Below, one piece after another: positions 10,099-19,660 of a stretch of DNA of 32,013 bases. The stretch's first letter is position 1. Each line of letters starts with the position of its first letter. A model generated the notes under the pieces. That model had not been told where the DNA came from and did not search any database. It worked only from the letters and a program-made list of their open reading frames with translations. The translations under genes and the position numbers were made by a program. Origin of the DNA: a virus. The stretch covers positions 1-32,013 of IMG/VR virus record IMGVR_UViG_3300008261_000263. One strand, given 5' to 3'.

Positions 10099-10752
10099 AT
10101 GTTTGAACATATATATCATGATATACCCAAACTTGAACGTGATACCGCTGCCGATGGCTCAAGAGTATATCGAACGCCATCGGGGAATGCTTATCCCAGT
10201 GTCACCACCGTCACAGGTTTGCTGGGAAAAGAAGCAATCATCGCATGGAGAAAAAGAGTCGGAGAAGCAGAAGCCAACCGAATCTCAACTACCGCAGCAA
10301 AAAGAGGAACAAGAGTTCATACCCTCTGCGAGAATTATCTTAACAATGAGCAAGTTGAACCAGACTTCTTCGAGTACCACATGTGGCATTCGCTTGTACC
10401 AGTCCTTAATGACATTAACAACATCAGAGCGTTAGAGAAACCACTATACTCTGATCATTTGCAAGTTGCTGGTACTGTTGATTGTATTGCAGAGTTTAGA
10501 GGTAAGTTGTCAGTCATTGACTTTAAAACTTCTAAACGTCTTAAGAGTCGTGATGACATTCATAACTACTTTATGCAATGCTCAGCTTATGCTGTTGCAT
10601 TTGAAGAACGAACAGGACTATCTGTTCCAAGGTTAGTAATTATTATGGCAGTTGATGATAACGATCCACTTGTCTTCGTTGAGAAGCGTGATGATTGGGT
10701 TGGAAAGTTTATTGAAGTGCGCAAGCAATATAAATCATTGCGTGGCGTGTAA
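10099..10752 (+). CDS. PD-(D/E)XK family nuclease
   Basis: The start at 10099 gives MFEHIYHDI and avoids overlap with the micro-gene upstream. The 217-residue protein has an RGTRVHTLCE segment (about residue 77), then AGTVDCIAEF and LSVIDFKTSKR (about residues 123-146), which carry the Asp and Asp-x-Lys of the PD-(D/E)XK active site. A downstream QCSAYAVAFEE helix fits the RecB/MGME1-like exonuclease branch. The likely role is DNA processing in recombination or degradation of host DNA. A sigma70-type promoter for the tmRNA locus starts just after the stop. Confidence 0.85.
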   Translation: MFEHIYHDIPKLERDTAADGSRVYRTPSGNAYPSVTTVTGLLGKEAIIAWRKRVGEAEANRISTTAAKRGTRVHTLCENYLNNEQVEPDFFEYHMWHSLVPVLNDINNIRALEKPLYSDHLQVAGTVDCIAEFRGKLSVIDFKTSKRLKSRDDIHNYFMQCSAYAVAFEERTGLSVPRLVIIMAVDDNDPLVFVEKRDDWVGKFIEVRKQYKSLRGV

Positions 10753-10755
10753 TGC

Positions 10756-10784
10756 TTTACTTCTGAGAAGAAGTGAGGTATACT
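10756..10784 (+). promoter_or_regulatory. sigma70-type promoter of the tmRNA locus
   Basis: TTTACT (10756-10761), 17 nt, and TATACT (10779-10784) place a transcription start near 10791, just upstream of the tmRNA acceptor piece. No other gene lies between, so this promoter most likely makes the tmRNA precursor. Confidence 0.7.
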
Positions 10785-10801
10785 AAAGGAATGGTTGTAA
10801 T

Positions 10802-10855
10802 CCCTTCAAAATGAAGGACTTCTGGACGTGGGTTCGACTCCCACCATCTCCACCA
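10802..10855 (+). ncRNA. ssrA: tmRNA acceptor piece (3' tRNA-like half)
   Basis: The piece holds a CCTTC/GAAGG hairpin (10803-10817), the P2 strand, the conserved GGACG, a 5-bp T-stem (GTGGG/CCCAC) with loop TTCGACT, the 3' acceptor strand and an encoded ACCA end at 10855. The tmRNA-like GGACGTGGGTTCGACT segment and the lack of any D-arm or anticodon arm upstream exclude an ordinary tRNA. Confidence 0.9.
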
Positions 10856-10866
10856 ATAGAGGTTTT

Positions 10867-11058
10867 ATGGAACTTGTAAAATATAGAGACAACGGTATGC
10901 ATTCTCATACATACTTTTGGAAAAATAAGAATGGGAATATTGTTTCACCTTATTTCGATTCATCTATAGATGCCATAGAATGGGTAAAGACTTTTATTGA
11001 TGGGGATGTACTGGTTTCGACAGAGGTAGATAGTAGAGACGGCAACTCGGGAATGTGA
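10867..11058 (+). CDS. 63-aa ORF nested in the permuted tmRNA gene
   Basis: The ORF starts 12 nt after the CCA of the acceptor piece, with a good ribosome binding site (AGAGG). The first 46 residues look like a real small phage protein: HSHTYFWKNKNGNIVSPYFDSS, then IDAIEWVKTFIDG; I recall a similar NGxIVSPYF and W-rich pattern in small phage proteins. The last 17 codons read through the tmRNA 5' piece (acceptor strand and D-loop region) and stop at a TGA inside it. Translation would need the unprocessed precursor or the excised segment, so the mRNA and tmRNA functions compete. Function unknown. Confidence 0.6.
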   Translation: MELVKYRDNGMHSHTYFWKNKNGNIVSPYFDSSIDAIEWVKTFIDGDVLVSTEVDSRDGNSGM

Positions 11059-11187
11059 AACCCGTAGGACTGGGGTAACTCGGTCGCAGAAGCAAAAAAC
11101 GTAAACGCAAACGACGAACTGTTCGCATTAGCAGCCTAAACACTGCTTAGGGTTTCGGTAGGTTTCCTCGTAACAGAATAACCTACC
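11002..11187 (+). ncRNA. ssrA: tmRNA coding piece (5' half with tag)
   Basis: It starts GGGGATGTACTGGTTTCGAC, the conserved tmRNA 5' end. A CGGG/CCCG hairpin and a GC/GU-rich hairpin (ACTGGG, GTAA, CTCGGT) could form the first pseudoknot region. The resume site (GTAAAC before GCA at 11107) and the tag follow. A CCTAA/TTAGG hairpin spans the tag stop, and an 8-bp hairpin (GGTAGGTT 11157-11164 with AACCTACC 11180-11187) closes the piece. Confidence 0.92.
11107..11139 (+). CDS. ssrA: tmRNA tag peptide ORF (ANDELFALAA)
   Basis: Codons GCA AAC GAC GAA CTG TTC GCA TTA GCA GCC TAA encode ten residues. The ALAA end is the classic proteobacterial ClpXP degron. The resume codon GCA follows the conserved TAAAC. 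The tag resembles the ANDE...ALAA tags of beta- and gammaproteobacteria. Confidence 0.92.
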   Translation, partial: ANDELFALAA

Positions 11188-11212
11188 ACCGATTAACTTT
11201 AAGGACTAACTT

Positions 11213-16390: not shown

Positions 16391-17332
16391 ATGGATATTC
16401 AAGCACTTCGCAAAATGCGCAATCAAGACTTCAGCAAAATCGCTGGAGAGTTTGACAAAATCGCCAACCCAGATTCAGCTGGTGGCAAATCTTATAAAGA
16501 CGACCGTGTCTGGAAACTAGAACCAGATAAAGCTGGTAACGCTACTGCCGTTATTCGCTTCCTTCCTCGATCAGAAGGTGATGAACTTCCTTGGGTTCGT
16601 GTCTTTAATCATTCCTTCCAAGGTCCAACAGGCAAGTGGTATATCGAAAACTCCCTAACAACTTTAGGTGAGAACGATCCAGTGGGCGAACTGAATTCAC
16701 GTTTGTGGAACAGTGGCTCCGAAGCCAACAAAGAAATTGCTCGTAAGCAAAAGCGCAAGCTGACTTACATCGCAAACGTATTGATCATCTCCGATCCTAA
16801 GCATCCAGAAAACGAAGGACAGGTTCGCTTGTTTAAGTTTGGTAAGAAAATCTTTGATAAGATTATGGATAAAGCCAAGCCAACCTTTGAGGATGAAAAG
16901 CCAGTCAACGTGTTTGACTTGTGGGAAGGTGCCGACTTCAAATTGCGTATGCGCAAAGTTGACGGTTACTCTAACTATGATCAGTCTATGTTCTCTGAGC
17001 CAGCTGAGTTGTTTGGTGGTGATGAAGACAAGTTGCTAGACGTTGTGTCTAAGCAGCACAAGCTGTCTGAGTTTGTTGATCGCAAGAACTTCAAATCTTA
17101 TGATGAGTTGTCTAAGAAGTTGAATGATGTGTTGAGTGAGACTGCTTCAGCACCACGTGCTTCTGCTGCTAAGATGGCTGACGACATGGAAGACTATACT
17201 CCTCCAACACGTAACGTACCTTCTGCTTCTGCACCAAAGTTGGTAGAGAAGGCAGCACCTGCGCCAGCAGCAAGCGCTGATGAAGATGACGATATGATGG
17301 GATATTTCCAGAAGATCGCAAACGAGAAGTAA
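16391..17332 (+). CDS. gp32: gp32-like single-stranded DNA-binding protein
   Basis: The 313-residue length matches T4 gp32 (301). The N-terminal basic segment (MDIQALRKMRNQDF) is the cooperativity region, the core (about residues 30-245) holds the OB-fold with ATAVIRFLPRSEGDE, PTGKWYIENSLTTLG, RKQKRKLTYIANVLI and FDLWEGADFKLRM, and the tail is acidic (ASADEDDDMM) as needed for contacts with gp59 and other replication proteins. The T4 zinc-binding cysteines are absent, as I recall for aquatic T4-like phages. Ribosome binding site AAAGGA. The last 186 nt are antisense to the tape measure ORF. Confidence 0.94.
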   Translation: MDIQALRKMRNQDFSKIAGEFDKIANPDSAGGKSYKDDRVWKLEPDKAGNATAVIRFLPRSEGDELPWVRVFNHSFQGPTGKWYIENSLTTLGENDPVGELNSRLWNSGSEANKEIARKQKRKLTYIANVLIISDPKHPENEGQVRLFKFGKKIFDKIMDKAKPTFEDEKPVNVFDLWEGADFKLRMRKVDGYSNYDQSMFSEPAELFGGDEDKLLDVVSKQHKLSEFVDRKNFKSYDELSKKLNDVLSETASAPRASAAKMADDMEDYTPPTRNVPSASAPKLVEKAAPAPAASADEDDDMMGYFQKIANEK

Positions 17333-19660
17333 AATACTCGGTGTAAAAAAAGTAACTGCTGGCGCTGGAGTAGATTTACCAGCATCAACTGCTTTAGAGT
17401 CTGTAGCAACTTTATTAGCAGCCTTAGGCATATCACCTGCAACTTTTCCCTTTTCTGGTAGTGATAAATCCGTAGCCTTAGCATAACCAACGTCAACTTT
17501 AAGTTTATCAAAGAAACTTAACTTTTGATAAGCATCATCTTCCTTGACAATCTCGGCAATCTTAGATTGGTCACCACCATCCTGTGCGTTAGATTTAATC
17601 TTTCTAAACGCACGTTTACTAATTTCTCTACTTTCTTGCCCAGCTGCTAGTGTACCTTCTCGTTGATCGAGTACCGTATCACCATGAAGCATTGCTTTAC
17701 CAGTCTTTGGATCAAAGGTAGCGAAATCTTGTTTATGGCTAAATGTGTTTACTGATTTTCCATCTTTATCGATCGTCTCAGTTGACTGAGCACCTGTAGA
17801 TAGTACTCTAGTTTCATCTTTGTTTCTTGCTTTTGCTGCAGCGATTTGCTCTTCAGTCTTACCTCTTGCTCTCATCGTCTCTTCATCAACAGTACCAGCT
17901 CCGCTTGATACGATATTTTTCTTAAATTTCTCGTCGTTTTCATAACCTTTTTCTCCACTTGCACTGTCGGTGACGCCAGCCGATGTCTTTAGTCCAGTAT
18001 TACTAGCAACACGTACAGTTCCCTCATCTGGTCGGAACGGATAGAATGGACCGATCGAAACTTTCTTATTGATAATAGGAATAGTGAAACCAATCTCAGG
18101 TATACCAAAGTCTTCAAGGAAACCAAACACCTGATCCTTAATCTTCTTGAAGAAGTCTGCGATTGGTGCAAAGATTTCTTTCAACGGATTCAAGATATAC
18201 TCAGTAAACAGGTTACCTACCATCTCAAATGCTGCACTAATAGGTTCAGCGATGTATGTGTTAAATGCGTCACCTAAGAACGTGAAGAATTTTGTTATTG
18301 GTTCAATAATATATTCACCAACGAAACCAGTTAACCACTCTACAACGTTACCAATAACCTTGGCATCGATCAAACCAAAGGTTAAAAATTCTAACATACC
18401 GCCAAGTCCAGCGATAAGAGCTTCTCCGATAGTTCCACCGTCCATGAATACTTTAAAACCATCCATCAAACCGTTGACTATTGAGCCAACGATTGCTAAT
18501 GGAAGTAGCACTTTACCGAATAACTTCATCAGCATCTTAGGATTGAATAAGAATTTTAATGCTGCAGTTAGACCAGACATTAACATGCTACCAACGCTTG
18601 ATAGCACACCCATTAAACTTGATATTAACCCAGACAAGAACTTCTTTGGACCGCCAAGTAAATTCCCCAGCAAACCACCAGATTCTTTTTTCTTGTCGTC
18701 ATCCCCAGCAGAAACTTTACCACCAATACGAGTGTTCTCTTCGATCTTGACTAATAGATCTGTTTGCAATGCCATGAGCCTTGCATTTTCCATCTCTTCT
18801 TCACTGGTAGCCATTGCGTCAGATAACCCACCTGATTCTTCTTTATCTTGTTTCTTAAAGAGAGGAATTACGTTATCAGCTTCACTAGAAGGTTCTTTTT
18901 TAAACAGAGGAATTACGTTATCAGCTTTACTGGAAGGTGCTTTCTCAACTTGTGGTTGACCGCTTGGGGTTCTTGCAACAACTTCACGGAATCTACTGTC
19001 TACCTTGGCTAGATTTGCTTCAAGACCAGCCTGGTTACCAGCTTCTGTCGATCTACCAACCTGTGCACTAAAGCCACGATCAACCAAACCAGCCATGGCT
19101 TTGTTATTCTCTTGCACTTTTATAAGTGCATCATTACCCTTGTCAAACTGATTTGCGAAAGTTTTAGATGCCTTAGCCTCACCTCCACCAATACCTTTGA
19201 CGTAATTCTTGTCTACGTTTAAACGGTCTTTAACATATTCTTGTCTGGCTTCACGTTTCTCAAGAGCAGCATCAGCGATACCACTAATGAAACCAGTACT
19301 ACCTTTTTCAACGATACCAGTCTTATCTAAAAAGCCACGTAGTGTGAATAACTTCTTGAAGTCATCGACACGTTCTTTAACTGCACCACCTGCGCCTTTG
19401 TAAGATTTAACTTTGTCCGCTTTATCTCCAATCGCACCTTGCACGCCACCTTGAGATTTAATCTGTTCCTTAATGGTACTAGTTAAATTCTTAAGCGTCA
19501 TGTTAAGAATCTCTGTGGCGCTAAGATTTTTCTTCTCAACCTCCACTGAGTCTTTTGCAAGTTTATCCGCAACGCCATCGTTATGGGTTTGTGCAGTTAG
19601 ACTCGCCCCACCCATCTTGGCTTTGTAGTCGGATAATTTGGTAATTGCTGCCTTTGTCAT
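17147..19660 (-). CDS. gp29: tail tape measure protein (gp29-like), odd 3' end
   Basis: This is the longest ORF (837 codons). Residues 1-330 are helical and charged. Residues about 333-440 contain long hydrophobic segments (LISSLMGVLSSVGSMLMSGL, LLPLAIVGSIVNGLMDG) and 440-530 amphipathic ones (FFTFLGDAFNTYIAEPI), typical of tape measure proteins, which set tail length and may pass into the host membrane. The gene follows gp26 and the gp51-like ORF, as gp29 does in T4-like order. The last 62 or so codons run antisense through gp32 and give an implausible Cys/Trp-rich tail, so the real end is probably near 17340 or was lost. A T7 run (17345-17351) lies at that point. Confidence 0.75.
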   Translation of the reverse strand: MTKAAITKLSDYKAKMGGASLTAQTHNDGVADKLAKDSVEVEKKNLSATEILNMTLKNLTSTIKEQIKSQGGVQGAIGDKADKVKSYKGAGGAVKERVDDFKKLFTLRGFLDKTGIVEKGSTGFISGIADAALEKREARQEYVKDRLNVDKNYVKGIGGGEAKASKTFANQFDKGNDALIKVQENNKAMAGLVDRGFSAQVGRSTEAGNQAGLEANLAKVDSRFREVVARTPSGQPQVEKAPSSKADNVIPLFKKEPSSEADNVIPLFKKQDKEESGGLSDAMATSEEEMENARLMALQTDLLVKIEENTRIGGKVSAGDDDKKKESGGLLGNLLGGPKKFLSGLISSLMGVLSSVGSMLMSGLTAALKFLFNPKMLMKLFGKVLLPLAIVGSIVNGLMDGFKVFMDGGTIGEALIAGLGGMLEFLTFGLIDAKVIGNVVEWLTGFVGEYIIEPITKFFTFLGDAFNTYIAEPISAAFEMVGNLFTEYILNPLKEIFAPIADFFKKIKDQVFGFLEDFGIPEIGFTIPIINKKVSIGPFYPFRPDEGTVRVASNTGLKTSAGVTDSASGEKGYENDEKFKKNIVSSGAGTVDEETMRARGKTEEQIAAAKARNKDETRVLSTGAQSTETIDKDGKSVNTFSHKQDFATFDPKTGKAMLHGDTVLDQREGTLAAGQESREISKRAFRKIKSNAQDGGDQSKIAEIVKEDDAYQKLSFFDKLKVDVGYAKATDLSLPEKGKVAGDMPKAANKVATDSKAVDAGKSTPAPAVTFFTPSILLLVCDLLEISHHIVIFISACCWRRCCLLYQLWCRSRRYVTCWRSIVFHVVSHLSSRSTWC

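Follow-up and report, generated by a model that had tools for sequence, protein, structure and literature searches.

A circularly permuted tmRNA locus at 10793-11195 of the window, the 32,013-nucleotide (32 kb) IMG/VR fragment of a T4-like phage analysed here, is probably a dual-purpose gene, in which a beta-type permuted tmRNA contains a spacer (IVS) that also serves as the message for a small phage protein. A preliminary description had already read the locus as a phage-encoded permuted tmRNA, which stands, with outer coordinates (10802-11187) that are about right, but it overlooked the conserved IVS ORF, and such RNAs, which it took to be rare or undescribed in T4-like phages, have been described. 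A two-piece tmRNA was published for the OM43 (Methylophilales) phage Melnitz in a paper whose survey covered 53 distinct two-piece phage tmRNAs (Buchholz 2022, PMC9004378); counting every form, the RF04321 paper lists 79 unique tmRNA sequences from phages (PMC11915505), Menderavirus GenBank records have a permuted tmRNA annotated as ssrA, and we found dozens more permuted tmRNAs in IMG/VR among the matches listed. Since phage permuted tmRNAs are already known, the headline claim of that description is ordinary. The unusual part of the locus is the protein gene nested in the IVS, and the open-licence literature on phage and permuted tmRNA spacers and on nested genes yielded no earlier account of a tmRNA IVS that encodes a protein. 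The features of the locus, all on the + strand, are as follows.

10756-10784, +: candidate sigma70-like promoter, TTTACT-17-TATACT (9/12 matches; fits a transcript start near 10790)
10793-10855, +: tmRNA 3' piece, the tRNA-like 3' half (RF04321 match start, ARAGORN)
10818-10824, +: P2 3' strand, within the 3' piece
10828-10844, +: T arm, within the 3' piece
10845-10851, +: acceptor 3' strand, within the 3' piece
10853-10855, +: encoded CCA, end of the 3' piece
10856-11001, +: IVS, 146 nt, expected to be absent from the mature tmRNA (treated as an insert by the covariance-model alignment)
10856-10867, +: IVS closing helix, 5' strand, carrying the SD of the nested ORF; pairs with 10986-10997 (covariation)
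10858-10862, +: Shine-Dalgarno (SD) AGAGG of the nested ORF (its position recurs in the IVS of other phages)
10867-11058, +: nested small protein gene, 63 codons, ATG at 10867 and stop at 11058 (homology, selection, AF2)
10986-10997, +: IVS closing helix, 3' strand, which would mask the SD (window folding; covariation)
10998-11001, +: conserved UGAU just 5' of the 5' piece; its UGA is out of the ORF frame in the window
11002-11195, +: tmRNA 5' piece, including the tag frame and the 3' pseudoknot region (ARAGORN; beta_tmRNA match end at 11195)
11002-11008, +: acceptor 5' strand, within the 5' piece
11021-11027, +: P2 5' strand, within the 5' piece
11107-11139, +: tag reading frame ANDELFALAA* (ARAGORN)

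The two-piece organization was borne out by two Rfam tmRNA covariance models that matched the locus above their cut-offs, RF04321 at 10793-11139 (133.9 bits, E 2.4e-26, gathering cut-off 47) and RF01850 (beta_tmRNA) at 10743-11195 (127.1 bits vs a cut-off of 84), and ARAGORN called a permuted tmRNA whose tag frame ends in small hydrophobic residues. The 3' half had been placed upstream with an ACCA end at 10855 and the 5' half from 11002, and both positions agree with the sequence (CATCTCC-A-CCA at 10845-10855; GGGGATG at 11002). The acceptor and P2 likewise match their earlier description as 7-bp helices with one G-U each: the G-U of the acceptor stem is the alanine identity pair G3.U70, present in 88/88 phage tmRNAs, and P2 joins ACTTCTG (10818-10824) to CAGAGGT (11021-11027). 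Co-variation was seen in both helices. Of 87 phage tmRNAs, chosen without regard to P2, almost all form this helix, with up to six pair types per position, and the acceptor underwent a compensatory A-U to G-C change between the window and a related locus, L003; the wider acceptor set was itself chosen by pairing, so that acceptor pairing there is no independent test. Judged from its sequence, the window tmRNA is a beta-type permuted tmRNA with a predicted function, sharing with this type (RF01850, RF04321) the order 3' piece, IVS, 5' piece, the 7-bp acceptor with G3.U70, P2, a tag ending in ALAA, the IVS closing helix and the UGAU ahead of the 5' piece. Earlier reports describe cutting of the permuted precursor by tRNA-processing enzymes and charging of the tmRNA with alanine (PMC11915505, PMC9004378, PMC3985003).

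Unlike bacterial permuted tmRNAs, which in our sample have short spacers, the window tmRNA has a 146-nt IVS and, within it, a conserved protein gene with its own SD. In 87 of 299 Pseudomonadota genomes RF04321 had a match, and these matches cover 193-290 nt apart from two longer exceptions (332 and 336 nt), compared with 347 nt in the window; we compared covariance-model match spans because our pairing-based parser found just four bacterial tmRNAs. The Achromobacter exception, from Achromobacter anxifer (L469/L470), has an IVS of 131 nt, a length rarely seen in bacterial permuted tmRNAs, and this IVS contains no SD-led ORF. As a separate observation, the Listeria phage contigs OR847240, OR848174 and OR848209 have a 33-nt exact match to the tmRNA T arm near the contig start, which would fit an attachment site in ssrA.

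The assignment to a T4-like phage is supported by gp6 baseplate and tail tube cap homologues in the window, which lie near the tmRNA together with homologues of a PhoH-like protein and a PDDEXK exonuclease. A sigma70-like site does lie well placed directly upstream of the tmRNA, as described previously, but sigma70-like sites are no more frequent in the region than expected by chance (3 vs 2.4 in shuffled sequences) and by eye L003 has no comparable site, so that the promoter is only suggestive. A MotA-box middle promoter (TGCTTTA, 10753) was rejected on its spacing to the -10 element, which does not match that of T4. No glutamine riboswitch like that of Melnitz was detected near the window tmRNA, even at E values up to 5, and no SmpB gene was found in 16 related phage records. 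Elsewhere in the window, an 837-aa ORF near the tail genes (17147-19660, - strand) has no significant match in Pfam or PHROGs.

The nested ORF runs for 45 codons, which encode the conserved domain, through an IVS that contains no in-frame stop, and then for 18 codons into the tmRNA 5' piece; its ATG lies a short 4 nt from the SD. The first 45 codons define a family, P0001, present in at least 48 viral or phage loci, mostly as stand-alone genes with an identical start position, and residues 1-42 of the window protein have all invariant columns of its core, LIKYRDAGMxTYTYFW...SPYFDSexEAxxWL. In six loci (L432, L433, L445, L449, L458, L459) P0001 stands directly upstream of a permuted tmRNA, and it lies inside the IVS in the window, the near-identical contig L002 and L003, so that among the matches listed the nested arrangement of this family is represented by two distinct loci only (window/L002; L003). 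Comparison of the window with L003 gave dN 0.276 and dS 0.98 for the nested ORF (Fisher p 0.0025) and no synonymous excess in the other two frames, a substitution pattern indicating that the ORF is under purifying selection. AF2 predicted a confident beta-beta-alpha domain over residues 1-40 (block pLDDT 88-92) and a poorly supported tail beginning about where tmRNA sequence is read, for which reason we mark the tail as run-on. The presence of a nested gene in the window IVS is thus well supported by homology, by selection and by the predicted fold. Searches of Pfam, PHROGs, PDB and BFVD for the function of the window protein gave no significant match; a resemblance to the DUF1508/UPF0339-like beta-beta-alpha fold is a weak lead. 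Homologues of the nested ORF were found neither in named phages by tblastn nor in bacterial genomes. We also considered a homing endonuclease, and no LAGLIDADG, HNH or GIY-YIG family matched.

ORFs recur in the spacers of phage permuted tmRNAs. We parsed 88 distinct phage permuted tmRNAs among the matches listed, so that the frequencies given here describe a sample; most of what pattern scans for long IVS picked up was tRNA clusters, and their output was filtered by pairing. The SD-led ORFs typically begin 9-15 nt past the CCA and fill the IVS. By a strict definition, 14 of the 44 IVS of at least 85 nt contained an SD, an ATG and an ORF, compared with 0.195 expected from 200 dinucleotide shuffles (maximum 2), as did 11 of the 22 of at least 125 nt (0.015 expected), all among the matches listed; in a scan that did not select on IVS length, 22 of 59 distinct tmRNAs among the matches listed had an IVS of at least 85 nt. 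The ORFs fall into several families with no detectable relation to one another. At nine other loci the ORF ends on the UGA within the conserved UGAU immediately 5' of the 5' piece, at about five its stop precedes that point by 11-12 nt and lies at the closing-helix edge, and in the remaining loci, including the window, the ORF runs on into the 5' piece. Besides Melnitz, named phages gave eleven tmRNA-like match regions, with no SD-led ORF among the parsable ones. Three further IVS protein families were each seen in two tmRNAs, MKYKIVVK... (L043 and L179), MFE[NT]WHW... (L053 and L142) and MTKKYNPISKEEWIEM... (L178 and L220), and the IVS of L009 and L014 encode very hydrophobic 24-residue peptides, MDDDLVRFLIGIVTVIVVGAIILF and MNDNLNSLAIGVVIVLIVFALVLL, behind strong SDs, possibly membrane microproteins.

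A cultured example is provided by Melnitz, whose IVS contains an SD-led ORF, MFKWLSKTRLVVITRDYFRERNRKADAKIPKYLSGTRSVYD (L541:1584-1748), located in MZ577097 inside the annotated tmRNA (45984-46436); it has no annotation in that record, and we found no discussion of it in the passages of PMC9004378 that we consulted. Melnitz resembles the window in being a T4-like phage with a permuted ssrA downstream of a PDDEXK nuclease gene, and in the IVS ORF found in this analysis, which enters the 5' piece in the same frame as that of the window. It differs in that its tmRNA is alpha-type, under a glutamine riboswitch reported in PMC9004378, and its IVS protein is unrelated to that of the window. About 15 IMG/VR relatives of Melnitz among the matches listed keep the SD, the start and the protein, some with a 24-nt insertion that preserves the frame. 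The pooled pN/pS of the Melnitz ORF and its relatives is 0.33, and the comparison of L541 with L563, in which the ORF stop falls inside the closing helix, gave p 3e-5.

The SD of the nested ORFs coincides with a conserved helix. The first nine IVS positions pair with the last ones before the UGAU, and across 18 IVS-ORF tmRNAs this closing helix was 94% paired, with compensatory pairs of several types, compared with 54-65% when the register was slid; in 15 of 17 cases it enclosed an SD-like motif at the IVS start, and folding of the window gave the same helix over the SD. The relation of nested-gene expression to tmRNA maturation is what we infer from these sequence features. A single transcript would run from the tRNA-like 3' piece through the IVS, including SD and ORF, to the 5' piece with the tag; host RNase P together with 3' processing would cut out the IVS, and host SmpB would use the mature tmRNA to tag stalled proteins. 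For ribosomes to reach the SD of the IVS, the closing helix would have to be open or, as during transcription, not yet formed. With the SD exposed mainly until the 3' strand of the helix has been made, translation and maturation would compete, each transcript giving the small protein or a tmRNA but not both. RNase P would cut at 11001/11002, 135 nt from the ATG and precisely at the boundary of codons 45 and 46, and since no stop precedes it in the IVS, the product would be a nonstop mRNA, itself a tmRNA substrate. A stronger version, which we consider conceivable though rather unlikely, is that the closing helix acts as a translational switch by hiding the SD and that in the run-on forms (window, Melnitz) the nonstop message made by RNase P is policed by the tmRNA in an autoregulatory loop. 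The stopless ORF of Escherichia coli arfA (PMC10107115), whose product is a substrate of trans-translation, is comparable, except that in the window the nonstop end would come from RNase P at the tmRNA's own 5' end. ORFs of group I introns, including the intron form of tmRNA (PMC11915505), likewise lie within a stretch that is excised from a structured RNA; unlike these, the IVS is no self-splicing intron, the pieces stay unligated, and the IVS proteins, of 24-70 aa, are without the endonuclease motifs of intron-encoded homing endonucleases.

A simpler alternative, to which we give nearly an even chance, shares the nested gene with our preferred explanation and differs in the regulatory link: recombination would have put a neighbouring small gene into the spacer for genome economy, where it is translated with no regulatory connection to tmRNA maturation. 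The P0001, L090 and PEYY families each occur both upstream of a tmRNA and inside an IVS. Close homologues of the L090 IVS protein in L118 and L037 end directly at the tmRNA 3' piece, and the PEYY...EWxRLGxxGPLPPER family lies upstream of the tmRNA in L004, L449 and L459 and inside the IVS in L042, L041, L020 and L098, in some apparently without a start. Small genes next to the tmRNA therefore seem to enter and leave the spacer, and the decayed look of the ORFs in L042, L041 and L020 suggests that a nested gene can be lost; unrelated proteins fill the same slot, so that what recurs is the slot and not the protein. Tuning is suggested, against this alternative, by an SD that is nearly always in the closing helix and by stops fitted to the UGAU or the helix edge, but the argument is weak because the closing helix is also present in tmRNAs without ORFs. 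It is very unlikely that only the small gene matters and that the tmRNA copy has decayed or acts as a decoy: a host tmRNA is available to the phage, and phages with a tag-less, inhibitory tmRNA are on record (DS6A, cited in PMC11915505), but here the tag, CCA, G3.U70, P2 and acceptor are all intact, the last with its compensatory change relative to L003. Finally, the many phage IVS without an ORF, including those of cultured Menderavirus, Samunavirus and XacN1, and the 60-codon ORFs expected by chance in AT-rich DNA would fit an ordinary phage permuted tmRNA with a non-coding spacer and a chance open frame, a reading that is already contradicted by the stand-alone P0001 homologues and left with hardly any credibility by the synonymous excess in the window/L003 and Melnitz comparisons and by shuffle means of 0.015-0.2 vs 11-14 observed among the matches listed.

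Phage tmRNAs have so far been treated as RNA genes only. Our results indicate that the spacers of permuted phage tmRNAs recurrently encode small conserved proteins from several families unrelated to one another; annotation pipelines overlook these proteins, since they label the region as tmRNA. The locus in the window is a compact case, in which a gene for an RNA and one for a protein share a strand and what would be a single transcript, and through it a link of ribosome rescue to the expression of phage genes can be tested, for which Melnitz is an isolated phage with a cultured host.
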